Translations under genes and position numbers: made by a program
The notes under the pieces: model-generated
What the model was told of the DNA's origin: nothing
Database searches by the model: none
What the model saw: the letters and a program-made list of their open reading frames with translations, nothing else
Assembly: GCF_024300825.1 (NCBI RefSeq)
Contig: NZ_CP101323.1
Location: 744,001-808,000, forward strand
Direction of reading: 5' to 3'
Length of the DNA: 64,000 nucleotides
Origin: Natronomonas gomsonensis
GTDB lineage: Archaea > Halobacteriota > Halobacteria > Halobacteriales > Haloarculaceae
Shown here: in pieces, positions 42,278 through 45,402 of the stretch
Position numbering within the stretch: position 1 is the first letter of the stretch
How the letters are laid out: each line of letters opens with the position of its first letter

Positions 42278-42361
42278 GCGAGGGTAGCCAAGCCCGGAAA
42301 CGGCGGCGGACTCAAGATCCGCTCCTGTAGAGGTCCGAGGGTTCAAATCCCTTCCCTCGCA
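42278..42361 (+). tRNA. tRNA-Leu (anticodon CAA)
   Basis: An 84-nt class II tRNA. Acceptor GCGAGGG pairs with CCCTCGC, the discriminator is A, and CCA is not encoded. The anticodon stem GCGGA/TCCGC closes the loop CTCAAGA, giving anticodon CAA (leucine, UUG). A long variable arm (TCCTGTAGAGGTCC-type) and T-arm GAGGG-TTCAAAT-CCCTT are visible. A TATA-like CTTTAC lies about 32 nt upstream. The 3' flank carries an unusual set of hairpins. Confidence 0.95.
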
Positions 42362-42364
42362 TGG

Positions 42365-42383
42365 CGAGGCGCCACGCGCCTCG
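42365..42383 (+). repeat. Hairpin 1 behind tRNA-Leu(CAA)
   Basis: A perfect 8-bp inverted repeat, CGAGGCGC / GCGCCTCG with loop CAC, starting 3 nt after the tRNA discriminator base. It could pair in the 3' trailer and influence processing or termination. A similar stem sits at the same distance behind the tRNA-Leu(UAG) gene. Confidence 0.6.
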
Positions 42384-42392
42384 GGAAGTCGA

Positions 42393-42407
42393 GCGGCCTC
42401 GTGCCGC
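42393..42407 (+). repeat. Hairpin 2 behind tRNA-Leu(CAA)
   Basis: A 5-bp inverted repeat GCGGC / GCCGC with loop CTCGT, the second of three successive stems in the 3' flank of the tRNA. Confidence 0.35.
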
Positions 42408-42421
42408 GAGACGCAACATGC

Positions 42422-42448
42422 GGAAGACCGCTCTTGGAGCGGCCTTCC
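42422..42448 (+). repeat. Hairpin 3 behind tRNA-Leu(CAA)
   Basis: A strong 12-bp stem with one A-C mismatch: GGAAGACCGCTC, loop TTG, GAGCGGCCTTCC. Its right arm runs into a 12-nt copy of the tRNA 3' end (42443-42454). It could be a terminator or a remnant of an attachment-like duplication. Confidence 0.5.
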
Positions 42449-42487
42449 CTCGCAAGATTCCTCACGAAACCGCCCACATAGCCGCGG

Positions 42488-42802
42488 CTACAGGTCCTCG
42501 GACAGTTCGTCGAAGCGGTTCTGGGCGGCCTCGTATCGCCGCTCGGTCTCGGCGGCGTCGTAGGTCCACTCGCCGTCGACGCGCTGTAGGACGGCGTTTT
42601 CGTGGCGACCCTCTTCGGGCAGGTCGGTCGTCTCGACGAGTCGGCCCTCCTGTTGGCCGCCCTCTTCGACGAAAATCAGTGCGTACTCCTCGCCGACCTG
42701 GTCGACGACGGCGGTATCACCACCGTCGGCGGCGACCACCGACCCGGAAACGAGCGTCATCGAAAGCAGTGCGACCACCAACAGCGCAAGTATCGAGCGC
42801 AT
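42488..42802 (-). CDS. Exported DUF3006-like small protein
   Basis: A 104-aa protein with a Sec-type signal peptide (MRSILALLVVALLSMTLVSG, cleavage near SVVAA). The mature part is a short beta-barrel-like domain resembling DUF3006: AVVDQVGEEYALIFVEEGGQ, then TTDLPEEGRHENAVL, with a C-terminal helix ERRYEAAQNRFDEL. It has no cysteine, so it is secreted rather than lipid-anchored. The ATG at 42802 was taken. Function is unknown. Confidence 0.7.
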   Translation of the reverse strand: MRSILALLVVALLSMTLVSGSVVAADGGDTAVVDQVGEEYALIFVEEGGQQEGRLVETTDLPEEGRHENAVLQRVDGEWTYDAAETERRYEAAQNRFDELSEDL

Positions 42803-42842
42803 CGCGGCAAGGTGGCCGCGTTTCGGTACATAAACTCGAGGG

Positions 42843-43106
42843 TCAGTCTTCGGCCGCTTCGACGGCGGCGACTTCGCCGACCGAGGCCCACCCGTCGTCT
42901 GTCTCGCGGCCGGCGACGAGGGGGTCGTCCTCGCCGTCGGTGACTAGCCGGTAGGTCGTTCCCTCGCTATCGACGCCCTCGGCCTGAAACGCCTCTTGGA
43001 AGAACTCCGCCGAGCGCATCTTCAAGACGACCGTCGCATCGTCTTCGAACGTCAGTCGAACGTCACGGGGCGTGATGTTGTGGATGCGCTTTGCGAGGGT
43101 GTTCAT
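42843..43106 (-). CDS. Conserved haloarchaeal hypothetical protein
   Basis: An 87-aa protein, unrecognised, starting MNTLAKRIHNITPRDVRLTF. It has a mixed alpha/beta pattern and a low-complexity Ala/Glu/Val tail (GEVAAVEAAED). The ATG at 43106 is preferred over an in-frame start nine codons upstream. It is upstream of, and co-oriented with, the DUF3006-like gene (40 nt), and divergent from the IMPase gene. Confidence 0.6.
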   Translation of the reverse strand: MNTLAKRIHNITPRDVRLTFEDDATVVLKMRSAEFFQEAFQAEGVDSEGTTYRLVTDGEDDPLVAGRETDDGWASVGEVAAVEAAED

Positions 43107-43171
43107 ATCGGATACAGCGAATTGGGTCGGCAAATCGGTGGCGCTTTCCGCGCCGCTTTCGGAGTTCCGGT

Positions 43172-43963
43172 ATGAGCGAGCGTGCGGACTGTGCCTTGCG
43201 GGCGGCCGAGGCGGGCGCGGCGGTGGCCTCGGGGTCGTTCCGGGAAGGCATCGCCGTCGAGACGAAGGGACAGAAGACGGACGTGGTGACCCAAGCCGAC
43301 CACGACGCTCAGGCGCAGGTCGTCTCGACGATTCGGGACCACTACGCCGACGACCCTATCGTCGGCGAAGAGGACGAAGAACTCGGTGCCGTTCCCGACA
43401 GGGGTTCGGCGTGGGTCGTCGACCCAATCGACGGGACGAACAACTTCGTTCGGGGGATACGGACGTGGGCGACGAGCGTCGCGGCGACGGTCGACGGCGA
43501 ACCACACGCGGGGGCGACCGTCTGTCCCGCGCTGGAGGATACCTACCTGCTCGATTCGGGAACTGCACACCGAAACGGCGAGGAACTGTCGGTCAGCGAC
43601 CGAACCGACCCCGAGGAGTTCGTCGTCGTGCCGACGGTGTGGTGGGAGTTCGACCGCCGCGAGGAGTACGCTGCCGCCTGTGCGGGCATCGTCGAACGGT
43701 TCGGCGACATGCGCCGGTTCGGCTCGGCCCAACTCGAACTCGCGCTGTGTGCGGCCGGTGCCATCGACGGCGTGATTACGAACGTCCGCGTGAGCCCGTG
43801 GGATAGCCTCGTCGGCGTCGGACTGGTCGAAGCCGCAGGCGGCGTCGTCACCGACATCGACGGTGACCCGTGGCGCCACGACAGCCGTGGACTGGTCGCC
43901 TCCAACGGCCAAGCCCACGACGCGGTGCTGGCGGCGGCCCGAGAAGCAGAGAGCGTTCGATAA
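43172..43963 (+). CDS. Inositol monophosphatase family phosphatase
   Basis: A 263-aa Li+-sensitive phosphatase family member (IMPase/FBPase/CysQ type), hydrolysing inositol phosphates, fructose-1,6-bisphosphate or PAP with Mg2+. Metal motifs are VVTQADHDAQ with IVGEEDEE (first Glu) and the signature WVVDPIDGTNNFVRG (about residues 82-95). The C-terminal Asp motif is in NVRVSPWDSLVGVGLVEAAG. The catalytic set is complete. In archaea many such enzymes are dual IMPase/FBPase, and specificity cannot be read here. The ATG at 43172 is used. Confidence 0.9.
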   Translation: MSERADCALRAAEAGAAVASGSFREGIAVETKGQKTDVVTQADHDAQAQVVSTIRDHYADDPIVGEEDEELGAVPDRGSAWVVDPIDGTNNFVRGIRTWATSVAATVDGEPHAGATVCPALEDTYLLDSGTAHRNGEELSVSDRTDPEEFVVVPTVWWEFDRREEYAAACAGIVERFGDMRRFGSAQLELALCAAGAIDGVITNVRVSPWDSLVGVGLVEAAGGVVTDIDGDPWRHDSRGLVASNGQAHDAVLAAAREAESVR

Positions 43964-44030
43964 CCCCGGCCGTGTACGACCCTCGCCAGCGACCGGAAGG
44001 GTGAAAACACCACAAGCCGGGCATTCGGGC

Positions 44031-45164
44031 ATGGAGTTGTCCGACGGACTCGACCTCGAACGCGCGTGGCTGGCGACGTTCCTCGGCGGCATCGCCGCCC
44101 TCGTCGTTGGCTCGCTGGCGTTTCCCCAACGCGTCTACGACGGGTTCCTGTGGCGGTACTTCTGGGGCCCGGTCGACGCGGACGCCCACGGCGCGACGTG
44201 TGCCGTCCGTGACGGCGGCGTGACCGAACGGCTGTACGGACAAACCGCTTGTGCCGGCGCCGACGGCATCGTCGCCACCCCAGGCTACACCACCGTTTCG
44301 ACGGTGAGTTACGCTATCGTCCTCGTGTTCATGCTCGTGGGTGTGCTGCTGTTGCTCCGCCGACTCGACATTCGAATGTCCAAGCGGTTCTACTTCGCGC
44401 TGTTCCCGTTCATGCTGTTCGGCGGCGCACTTCGGGTCGTAGAGGACGTCAACGCCACGTTCGTCCGGGAGGGCGTCGGGATGCTTATCCCGTTTCCTAC
44501 TGTCGGCCTCATTATCAGTCCGTTCATCTACTTCACGATGTTCGGCATCACGCTCGCCGCCCTCGTCGGTACCATCTCGCTGTCGAAGCGAGGCGTCATC
44601 GACGAGTTCGAAACCGTACTCGGTGGCGTCGGCGCAGTCGCACTCGCGGCCACCCTCGCCGTCCTTCTGTACGTCTCCGCGACCTCCGACATCGTCGGCT
44701 TCTACCCCGCCGTCGCCGTCATCGTTCTCGTCGGCGCGACGCTCACCGCGGCGGCGTTTTGGGTGCTCTCGGAGCGATACGCACCGCGAATCAACGCCGG
44801 CACCGGAGCGATGGGGCCACTCGTCGTCTGGGGGCACTCCGTCGACGGCATCGCCAACGTGTTGAGCCTCGATTGGCACGAGGAACTCGGTCTCCCCGTC
44901 GAGTACGGCTCGAAACACGTCGTCAATGCCGCTGTCGACCGCTACACCGGTATCATTCAACCCGAGTGGCTCACCGACGCCATCGGCACCGTCTGGCCGT
45001 TCCTCCTCATCAAAGTCTTCGCCGCGGTCGCCGTCGTCTGGGTGTTCGACCGGGAAATCTTCGAGGAAAGCCCCCGGTATGCCTACCTGCTCCTCATCGC
45101 CATCCTCGCGGTCGGACTCGGCCCCGGAACCCGAGACATGATTCGGGCGACGCTGGGTATCTGA
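44031..45164 (+). CDS. DUF63 family membrane protein
   Basis: A 377-aa euryarchaeal membrane protein of the DUF63 family with about eight to nine helices. Family-like features: FPQRVYDGFLWRYFWGPVDA near the N-terminus, LLLLRRLDIRMSKRFYFALF, MLFGGALRVVED, and the C-terminal HSVDGIANVLSLDWHEELG followed by FLLIKVFAAVAVVWVFD. Function is unknown. It starts 67 nt after the IMPase gene, same strand. Confidence 0.88.
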   Translation: MELSDGLDLERAWLATFLGGIAALVVGSLAFPQRVYDGFLWRYFWGPVDADAHGATCAVRDGGVTERLYGQTACAGADGIVATPGYTTVSTVSYAIVLVFMLVGVLLLLRRLDIRMSKRFYFALFPFMLFGGALRVVEDVNATFVREGVGMLIPFPTVGLIISPFIYFTMFGITLAALVGTISLSKRGVIDEFETVLGGVGAVALAATLAVLLYVSATSDIVGFYPAVAVIVLVGATLTAAAFWVLSERYAPRINAGTGAMGPLVVWGHSVDGIANVLSLDWHEELGLPVEYGSKHVVNAAVDRYTGIIQPEWLTDAIGTVWPFLLIKVFAAVAVVWVFDREIFEESPRYAYLLLIAILAVGLGPGTRDMIRATLGI

Positions 45165-45257
45165 GAGCCATCTCGTTGTCTTTCTTCAGTCGTAGCTCGT
45201 GATACAGTCAGTCGATAAATCCAGCTCTGCTCTTCCTCACGTTCGTTCAGTGCTCTC

Positions 45258-45278
45258 ACGGCTCGCTTCGCTCGCCGT
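45258..45278 (-). repeat. Hairpin 2 behind tRNA-Leu(UAG)
   Basis: A 5-bp stem ACGGC / GCCGT (plus-strand notation) with an 11-nt loop TCGCTTCGCTC. The loop resembles the 11-nt loop of the next hairpin (TCACTCCGTTC; 8 of 11 identical), so the two look like diverged copies of one element. Confidence 0.4.
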
Positions 45279-45287
45279 TCGAGTTCT

Positions 45288-45314
45288 CGAGGTGCTCACT
45301 CCGTTCGCACCTCG
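45288..45314 (-). repeat. Hairpin 1 behind tRNA-Leu(UAG)
   Basis: A perfect 8-bp inverted repeat CGAGGTGC / GCACCTCG with an 11-nt loop. It begins 3 nt after the discriminator base of the minus-strand tRNA, the same spacing and nearly the same stem as behind tRNA-Leu(CAA). Confidence 0.6.
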
Positions 45315-45317
45315 CTA

Positions 45318-45402
45318 TGCGCGGGACCGGATTTGAACCGGCGGACCCCTACGGGACAGCGTCCTAAGCGCTGCGCCTTTGGCCTGGCTCGGCAACCCGC
45401 GC
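45318..45402 (-). tRNA. tRNA-Leu (anticodon UAG)
   Basis: An 85-nt class II tRNA on the minus strand. Acceptor GCGCGGG pairs with CCCGCGC and the discriminator is A. The anticodon stem CAGCG/CGCTG closes the loop CTTAGGA, giving anticodon UAG (leucine, CUA). Long variable arm and T-arm GCCGG-TTCAAAT-CCGGT are present. CCA is not encoded. It converges on the DUF63 gene and lies just downstream of the MOSC gene. Confidence 0.95.

Follow-up and report, generated by a model that had tools for sequence, protein, structure and literature searches.

Gene-free cassettes that look mobile at the tRNA 3' ends of Halobacteria, seen from two tRNA-Leu trailers of Natronomonas gomsonensis

Two tRNA-Leu trailers with one dispersed element

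We have analyzed a stretch of 64,000 nucleotides of the haloarchaeon Natronomonas gomsonensis (RefSeq assembly GCF_024300825.1, contig NZ_CP101323.1, positions 744,001 to 808,000 of the forward strand), hereafter the window. It contains two tRNA-Leu genes on opposite strands, tRNA-Leu(CAA) and tRNA-Leu(UAG), whose 3' trailers carry near-identical hairpins (Table 1) and bear on a family of short gene-free units that end in a copy of the 3' end of the tRNA behind which they lie. Direct reading of the sequence agreed with the arrangement given in an earlier note on this DNA. Behind tRNA-Leu(CAA), the discriminator base of which is 42361, one base short of the end given by ARAGORN, three nucleotides (TGG) precede a stem formed by CGAGGCGC, CAC and GCGCCTCG. 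Behind tRNA-Leu(UAG), on the minus strand, TAG is followed by CGAGGTGC, GAACGGAGTGA and GCACCTCG, the 8-bp CGAGGYGC stem being common to both trailers. Folding confirmed additional stems 3' of both first stems (z of -2.85 and -1.73), and the UAG trailer loops GAACGGAGTGA and GAGCGAAGCGA were identical at 8 of 11 positions. The similarity of the two stems is beyond chance, as the note had suggested: CGAGGYGC N3-12 GCRCCTCG was found at five sites in 3.65 Mb (with a spacing of 3 nt to the preceding tRNA at two of them) and the reversed-pattern control at none.

Both tRNA-Leu trailers hold copies of one dispersed two-hairpin element, that we have called B. Its covariance model (R2) was built from the copies of relatives plus the CAA copy, without the UAG copy. 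The CAA and UAG trailers were the two best R2 matches of the window, the third-best having an E-value of 0.24 in the 64 kb searched.

Units with a copied tRNA tail at their end

The tRNA 3' flanks across Halobacteria carry non-coding units, with a median length of 105 nt, that end in the cognate 21-nt tail of the tRNA (positions 53-73). In the genome of N. gomsonensis itself, at about eight tRNAs a piece of 12-22 nt from the gene's 3' end is repeated roughly 80-160 nt downstream, and the longest of these copies go from position 53 (GTTCRAATCC...) to the discriminator base. The tail copy of each class I unit, as we refer to the main type, is preceded by a conserved palindrome that commonly ends in CGTCTTNCTCCG. 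Read 5' to 3', the class I cassette (mostly about 70-160 nt) consists of a 5' hairpin, an inverted and partly degenerate tail, an apical hairpin, CGTCTTNCTCCG and the direct 21-nt tail. Out of 83 occurrences of the unit signature, 74 were located less than 600 nt behind a called tRNA, over 21 tRNA kinds. Among those with no called tRNA, four are directly preceded by another copy of their tail or by the 3' end of the tRNA itself, and a further two fall at the edge of the sequence stretch examined. Over the 74 loci the units measured 87-265 nt and the tail copy was exact along its 21 nt in 50 cases, or had at most one mismatch in 60. At positions 63-73 the mean number of mismatches was 0.8 to the cognate tail vs 6.1 to other tails. 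At some loci the units are found in tandem, with the tail serving as the repeat.

The alignment of 22 unit hairpins gave a long stem with 93.5% of the cells paired. There were 50 two-sided changes, compared with 16.6 in shuffles and at most 6 when the partner was slid; columns 7 and 65, for example, change together (UA in 13, CG in 9). At its base, the stem consists of the T-loop palindrome GGTTCRAATCC paired with its inverted copy, and this pairing covaries too. The apical loop is usually GA-NC-GNA-GN-GA; 54 of the 74 units have the NC-GNA-GN core on the tRNA strand and two on the opposite strand. For the window and 18 unit loci, searches against Rfam retrieved tRNAs and no other RNA family at the gathering score. 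Besides, a second unit class was observed behind Gly-TCC, Arg-CCT and Ala-GGC, where the tail copy is limited to about 10-14 nt; its Ala copy has the loop in the reverse sense, CTCGCTTCGCTCG.

Range and presence or absence among relatives

Searching with R1, a covariance model for the hairpin of class I units, we found matches in 93 of 97 Halobacteria genomes, with between 1 and 32 copies per genome. Across the phylum, 119 sampled genomes gave 20 R1 matches, all of them within the window's own order and none in non-Halobacteria genomes. In three complete genomes, 79 of the 83 R1 matches shared the strand of a tRNA and lay fewer than 800 nt behind its 3' end, against some 0.5 expected by chance, and 61 of the 126 tRNAs had at least one match. 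The exact signature appeared in 91 stretches of GTDB species genomes; among the 80 of these listed, all belonged to Halobacteria or to a contig labelled only as a euryarchaeal metagenome-assembled genome. The same signature had no match in the viral contigs of IMG/VR. A looser pattern was present in 35 viral contigs, none of which passed the unit model, and the class I palindrome had no blastn match in either phages or plasmids. On these searches, a viral or plasmid origin of the units was rejected. At the level of sequence, we regard as established their class-wide range, adjacency to tRNAs and strand, tandem arrays, tail copy and structure.

Mobility was approached by comparing the tRNA loci of three close Natronomonas genomes, N. 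gomsonensis and two congeners. Of 128 tRNA loci, 22 had a tail copy within 450 nt (1.05 expected from the tails of other tRNAs). These copies were polymorphic at 11 of the 13 comparable tRNA kinds. Four filled and empty pairs had clean exact edges. The N. gomsonensis genome has an insertion of 120 bp (99+21) at Gly-CCC, where both congeners are empty, and another of 105 bp (84+21) at Ser-CGA, where the congener G016 is empty. Conversely, G016 has 132 bp (111+21) inserted at Ala-GGC and 93 bp (72+21) at Leu-UAG, the site that is empty in the window. At the filled sites the tRNA is intact and unit plus tail have been added, leaving the tRNA 3' end duplicated at the far junction as expected of a tRNA-targeted integrative element. 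In these genomes, units are precisely present or absent between close relatives with the tRNA left intact.

The two trailers of the window

The CAA trailer is read as B followed by a short cassette. This short hairpin is present behind tRNA-Leu(CAA) in most genomes of the genus, at variable distance and with up to 97% identity over 38 nt. A similar mini-hairpin, with that tRNA's own acceptor end, is found behind tRNA-Leu(GAG) (G000:C1:922289-922350, G000 being the N. gomsonensis genome). The UAG trailer is an empty site that holds B together with a probable remnant of a cassette. The putative remnant, GAACGAACGTGAGGAAGAGCAGAGCTGGATTT, aligned to the Leu-UAG unit of locus L184 with a score of 40 (best of 1000 shuffles, 32), the alignments to other units being weaker or not significant. 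The DNA beyond tRNA-Leu(UAG) (window 45165-45317 vs stretches L120-L122) is largely unrelated among close congeners, which fits an integration hotspot. We also observed dense clusters of extra tRNAs resembling the tRNA arrays of integrated elements, at G000:C1:3503175-3507010 and, in genome G002, at C1:451742-455837 and C2:1246049-1250641.

Table 1. Features of the two tRNA-Leu trailers in window coordinates, and loci of the second unit class in genome coordinates
Feature	Position	Strand	Sequence or evidence
tRNA-Leu(CAA)	42278..42361	+	ARAGORN; Rfam RF00005
Tail of tRNA-Leu(CAA) copied by units, last 21 nt	42341-42361	+	GTTCAAATCCCTTCCCTCGCA
B element behind tRNA-Leu(CAA), two hairpins	42364..42411	+	R2, 64.2 bits, E=2.9e-10; copy in training set
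B of CAA trailer, stem 1	42365-42383	+	CGAGGCGC/GCGCCTCG
B of CAA trailer, stem 2	42389-42411	+	TCGAGCGG/CCGCGAGA
Short tail hairpin behind tRNA-Leu(CAA)	42419..42454	+	12-nt copy at +82; recurrence in congeners
Shortened inverted tail of short hairpin, followed by an inner hairpin	42419-42426	+	TGCGGAAG
Exact 12-nt tRNA 3'-end copy of short hairpin	42443-42454	+	CCTTCCCTCGCA
tRNA-Leu(UAG)	45318..45402	-	
Tail of tRNA-Leu(UAG)	45318-45338	-	GTTCAAATCCGGTCCCGCGCA
Empty junction	45317..45318	-	93-bp insertion (72-bp unit + 21-bp tail copy) here in G016
B element behind tRNA-Leu(UAG)	45254..45315	-	R2, 44.0 bits, E=1.6e-6; copy outside training; GA/GA scan
B of UAG trailer, stem 1	45288-45314	-	CGAGGTGC/GCACCTCG; GA-AC-GGA-GT-GA loop
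B of UAG trailer, stem 2	around 45258-45278	-	GA-GC-GAA-GC-GA loop
Truncated start of class I unit (probable)	45217..45248	-	GAACGAACGTGAGGAAGAGCAGAGCTGGATTT; local alignment to Leu-UAG unit of L184
Second unit class	G000:C1:553617-553790		
Second unit class	G000:C1:565075-565160		
Second unit class	G000:C1:1333890-1333970		

B has its own distribution. Five genomes of the genus contained 3 to 22 copies each, the majority away from tRNAs, and this genus-wide search rules out B as a tRNA-specific part. The CAA trailer used as blastn query across the genus retrieved copies within open reading frames of relatives, the translation of in-frame copies being close to SEAPRASExSSGExxxPRDGDE. Three of these proteins were assigned by Pfam to a FAD_binding_2 protein, tryptophan synthase alpha (TrpA) and arginyl-tRNA synthetase (ArgRS). 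The N. gomsonensis genome itself has a copy (G000:C1:603795-603846) that is a precise 51-nt in-frame insertion, and the congener G016 is without it. In phages and plasmids, apart from tRNA pieces, blastn with the CAA locus gave a single stretch resembling B, inside a gene for phosphoenolpyruvate carboxylase. Hairpins similar to B were also seen nested within the apical loop of class I units (L176, L136), suggesting that B and class I units move independently.

Since B is dispersed and lies in frame in protein genes, the CGAGGYGC stem by itself does not qualify as a 3' trailer element of tRNAs. The earlier note took the shared layout as the sign of a functional trailer element involved in processing, termination or recombination. 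What survives of this is a tRNA-specific cause, as tRNA 3' ends do receive hairpin units that copy the tail, and a recombination site fits; processing and termination found no support, and the stem is the dispersed part of the layout. Equally, a genome-wide repeat with no tRNA association, which the note had named as evidence against itself, is what the stem turned out to be, whereas the locus is not. Nor is the stem a general feature of tRNA 3' flanks: most of the 48 tRNAs of the genome lack it, their trailers being plain and often T-rich.

Origin of the units

The reading that we favor, with a probability of roughly 0.6, is that the units are non-autonomous cassettes which a tRNA-specific recombinase inserts at tRNA 3' ends, the two trailers of the window lying in such flanks. 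Archaeal tyrosine integrases favor tRNA 3' ends, T stem-loop included (PMC8371274). Haloarchaeal proviruses located in tRNA genes have duplications of 22-43 nt of the tRNA 3' end, as in a Haloquadratum prophage in tRNA-Ala with a 22-nt tRNA duplication at its end (PMC3119063). By analogy, the tail in the tRNA (attB) would recombine site-specifically with the identical tail in the cassette (attP), with the crossover within the T-loop, where the identity block starts. The block from the T-loop to the discriminator is what an integrase of this kind would require to restore the tRNA, which favors a tRNA-specific tyrosine integrase acting in trans on the cassettes. The units (87-265 nt) are too small to encode an integrase and therefore would be non-autonomous at best. 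The hairpin, with its base rebuilding the T-loop palindrome, may allow the integrase to act on a folded single strand; this is a further guess, made from the rebuilt palindrome and the GNA-capped mini-hairpins. GCGAAGC is associated with extraordinarily stable DNA hairpins. We would go as far as an integron-like system of Halobacteria only very tentatively, and consider it doubtful: tRNA 3' ends would be the receivers and gene-free cassettes would travel as folded single strands, moved by a recombinase of the tRNA T-loop and accumulating as arrays in tandem behind roughly half of the tRNAs.

Several observations weigh against insertion by such a recombinase. Nothing resembling the units was found in viral, phage or plasmid collections, although these might have been expected to hold an autonomous partner. 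Beyond the T-loop the inverted arm matches the cognate tail weakly (5.86 vs 5.41, sd 0.11), and DNA folding energy prefers neither strand of the units. No recombinase was linked to the units and neither circles nor single-stranded forms were observed, the enzyme and any single-stranded DNA step being deductions. Finally, deletion between 21-bp direct repeats gives the same picture as insertion, so that the direction is a deduction as well; at Gly-CCC parsimony favors gain, one gain vs two losses.

That the hairpins are functional trailers, signals for tRNase Z 3' processing or for transcription termination, we consider quite unlikely. In its favor, all 79 tRNA-linked matches are on the tRNA strand and the stems covary, and in Methanopyrus kandleri a palindrome about 10 bp behind half of its tRNAs was proposed as a maturation signal (PMC5217627). 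However, a directional insertion site would fix the strand anyway, and about half of the tRNAs have plain trailers with no units. We have rejected a pure trailer signal as the main explanation because relatives differ in the presence of units, gained or lost at the same tRNA among congeners, and because of the tail copies, an exact copy of 21 nt being left unexplained by a processing signal.

The tail copies might instead be footprints of lost large integrative elements (proviruses, islands), with the hairpins as conserved attachment arms. Large haloarchaeal elements do duplicate tRNA 3' ends to the extent mentioned above, and congeners differ in the DNA beyond tRNA-Leu(UAG). Nevertheless one unit sequence is common to 21 tRNA kinds, the viral, phage and plasmid collections are devoid of it, the Gly-CCC and Ala-GGC junctions are clean small insertions, and some loci have tandem units, all of which makes this origin unlikely. 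It is very improbable that the two stems are independent and meaningless, ordinary intergenic hairpins of GC-rich haloarchaea. The loose pattern GARCGNAGYGA is indeed frequent, with 132 occurrences in the genome against 84 for its reversed control. However, a single two-hairpin model fits both trailers far above the rest of the window, nearly all unit-model matches lie just 3' of a tRNA (79/83), and, in 376 kb sampled around tRNAs, eight of nine GA/GA hairpins with a GNA loop were no more than about 150 nt downstream of a tRNA.

Insertion of cassettes at tRNA 3' ends, if true, would mean that a family of small mobile elements decorates the tRNA 3' ends of a whole archaeal class. Such insertion would account for many puzzling hairpins seen in the tRNA trailers of haloarchaea and would offer, at tRNA genes, a natural record of recombination. 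It would also bear on the reading of tRNA trailers in RNA-seq and on the choice of tRNA sites by large elements, and would pose a testable question, namely in what form gene-free DNA of some 100 bp moves and by which recombinase. We found no description of a tRNA-tail cassette family in Rfam or in the open-access literature.

Comparison with known systems

By its sequence features, the cassette system looks mobile and occurs across Halobacteria. Like archaeal integrative elements and proviruses of tRNA genes, the units target the 3' part of the tRNA, keep the gene intact and duplicate about 22 nt. Unlike them, they are mostly of 72-265 nt, have no integrase gene, have a single hairpin core in common across 21 tRNA kinds and can stack in tandem. 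The MITEs, PATEs and SMRs of Haloquadratum (PMC3119063) are also short, palindromic, non-coding mobile DNA of haloarchaea. PATEs are related to IS605, and PATEs and SMRs have been reported without target duplication (PMC3119063), whereas the units have the 21-nt tRNA tail copy and lie almost exclusively behind tRNAs. A PATE or REP derived from IS200/IS605 does not agree with the 21-nt direct repeat that flanks each class I unit. Nor are tandem units a CRISPR array, the "spacers" being one conserved hairpin family and the repeat a tRNA tail. The palindrome of Methanopyrus kandleri, another archaeon, likewise follows about half of the tRNA genes at a short distance, but is a short spaced motif, CGTTA(N)9TAACG, for which no tail copy was reported (PMC5217627).

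The element B, found in frame inside protein genes, resembles in this respect the Rickettsia palindromic elements. These are palindromic repeats that occur between genes and also in frame inside protein genes; B differs in being halobacterial, in its sequence and in being found directly behind tRNAs as well. The attC sites of integrons are imperfect palindromes in which the folded stem rebuilds the recombination site, and integron cassettes form tandem arrays. The units are likewise imperfect palindromes found in tandem arrays, with a folded stem that may rebuild a recombination site, and they differ in being gene-free and in having the tRNA 3' end as target.

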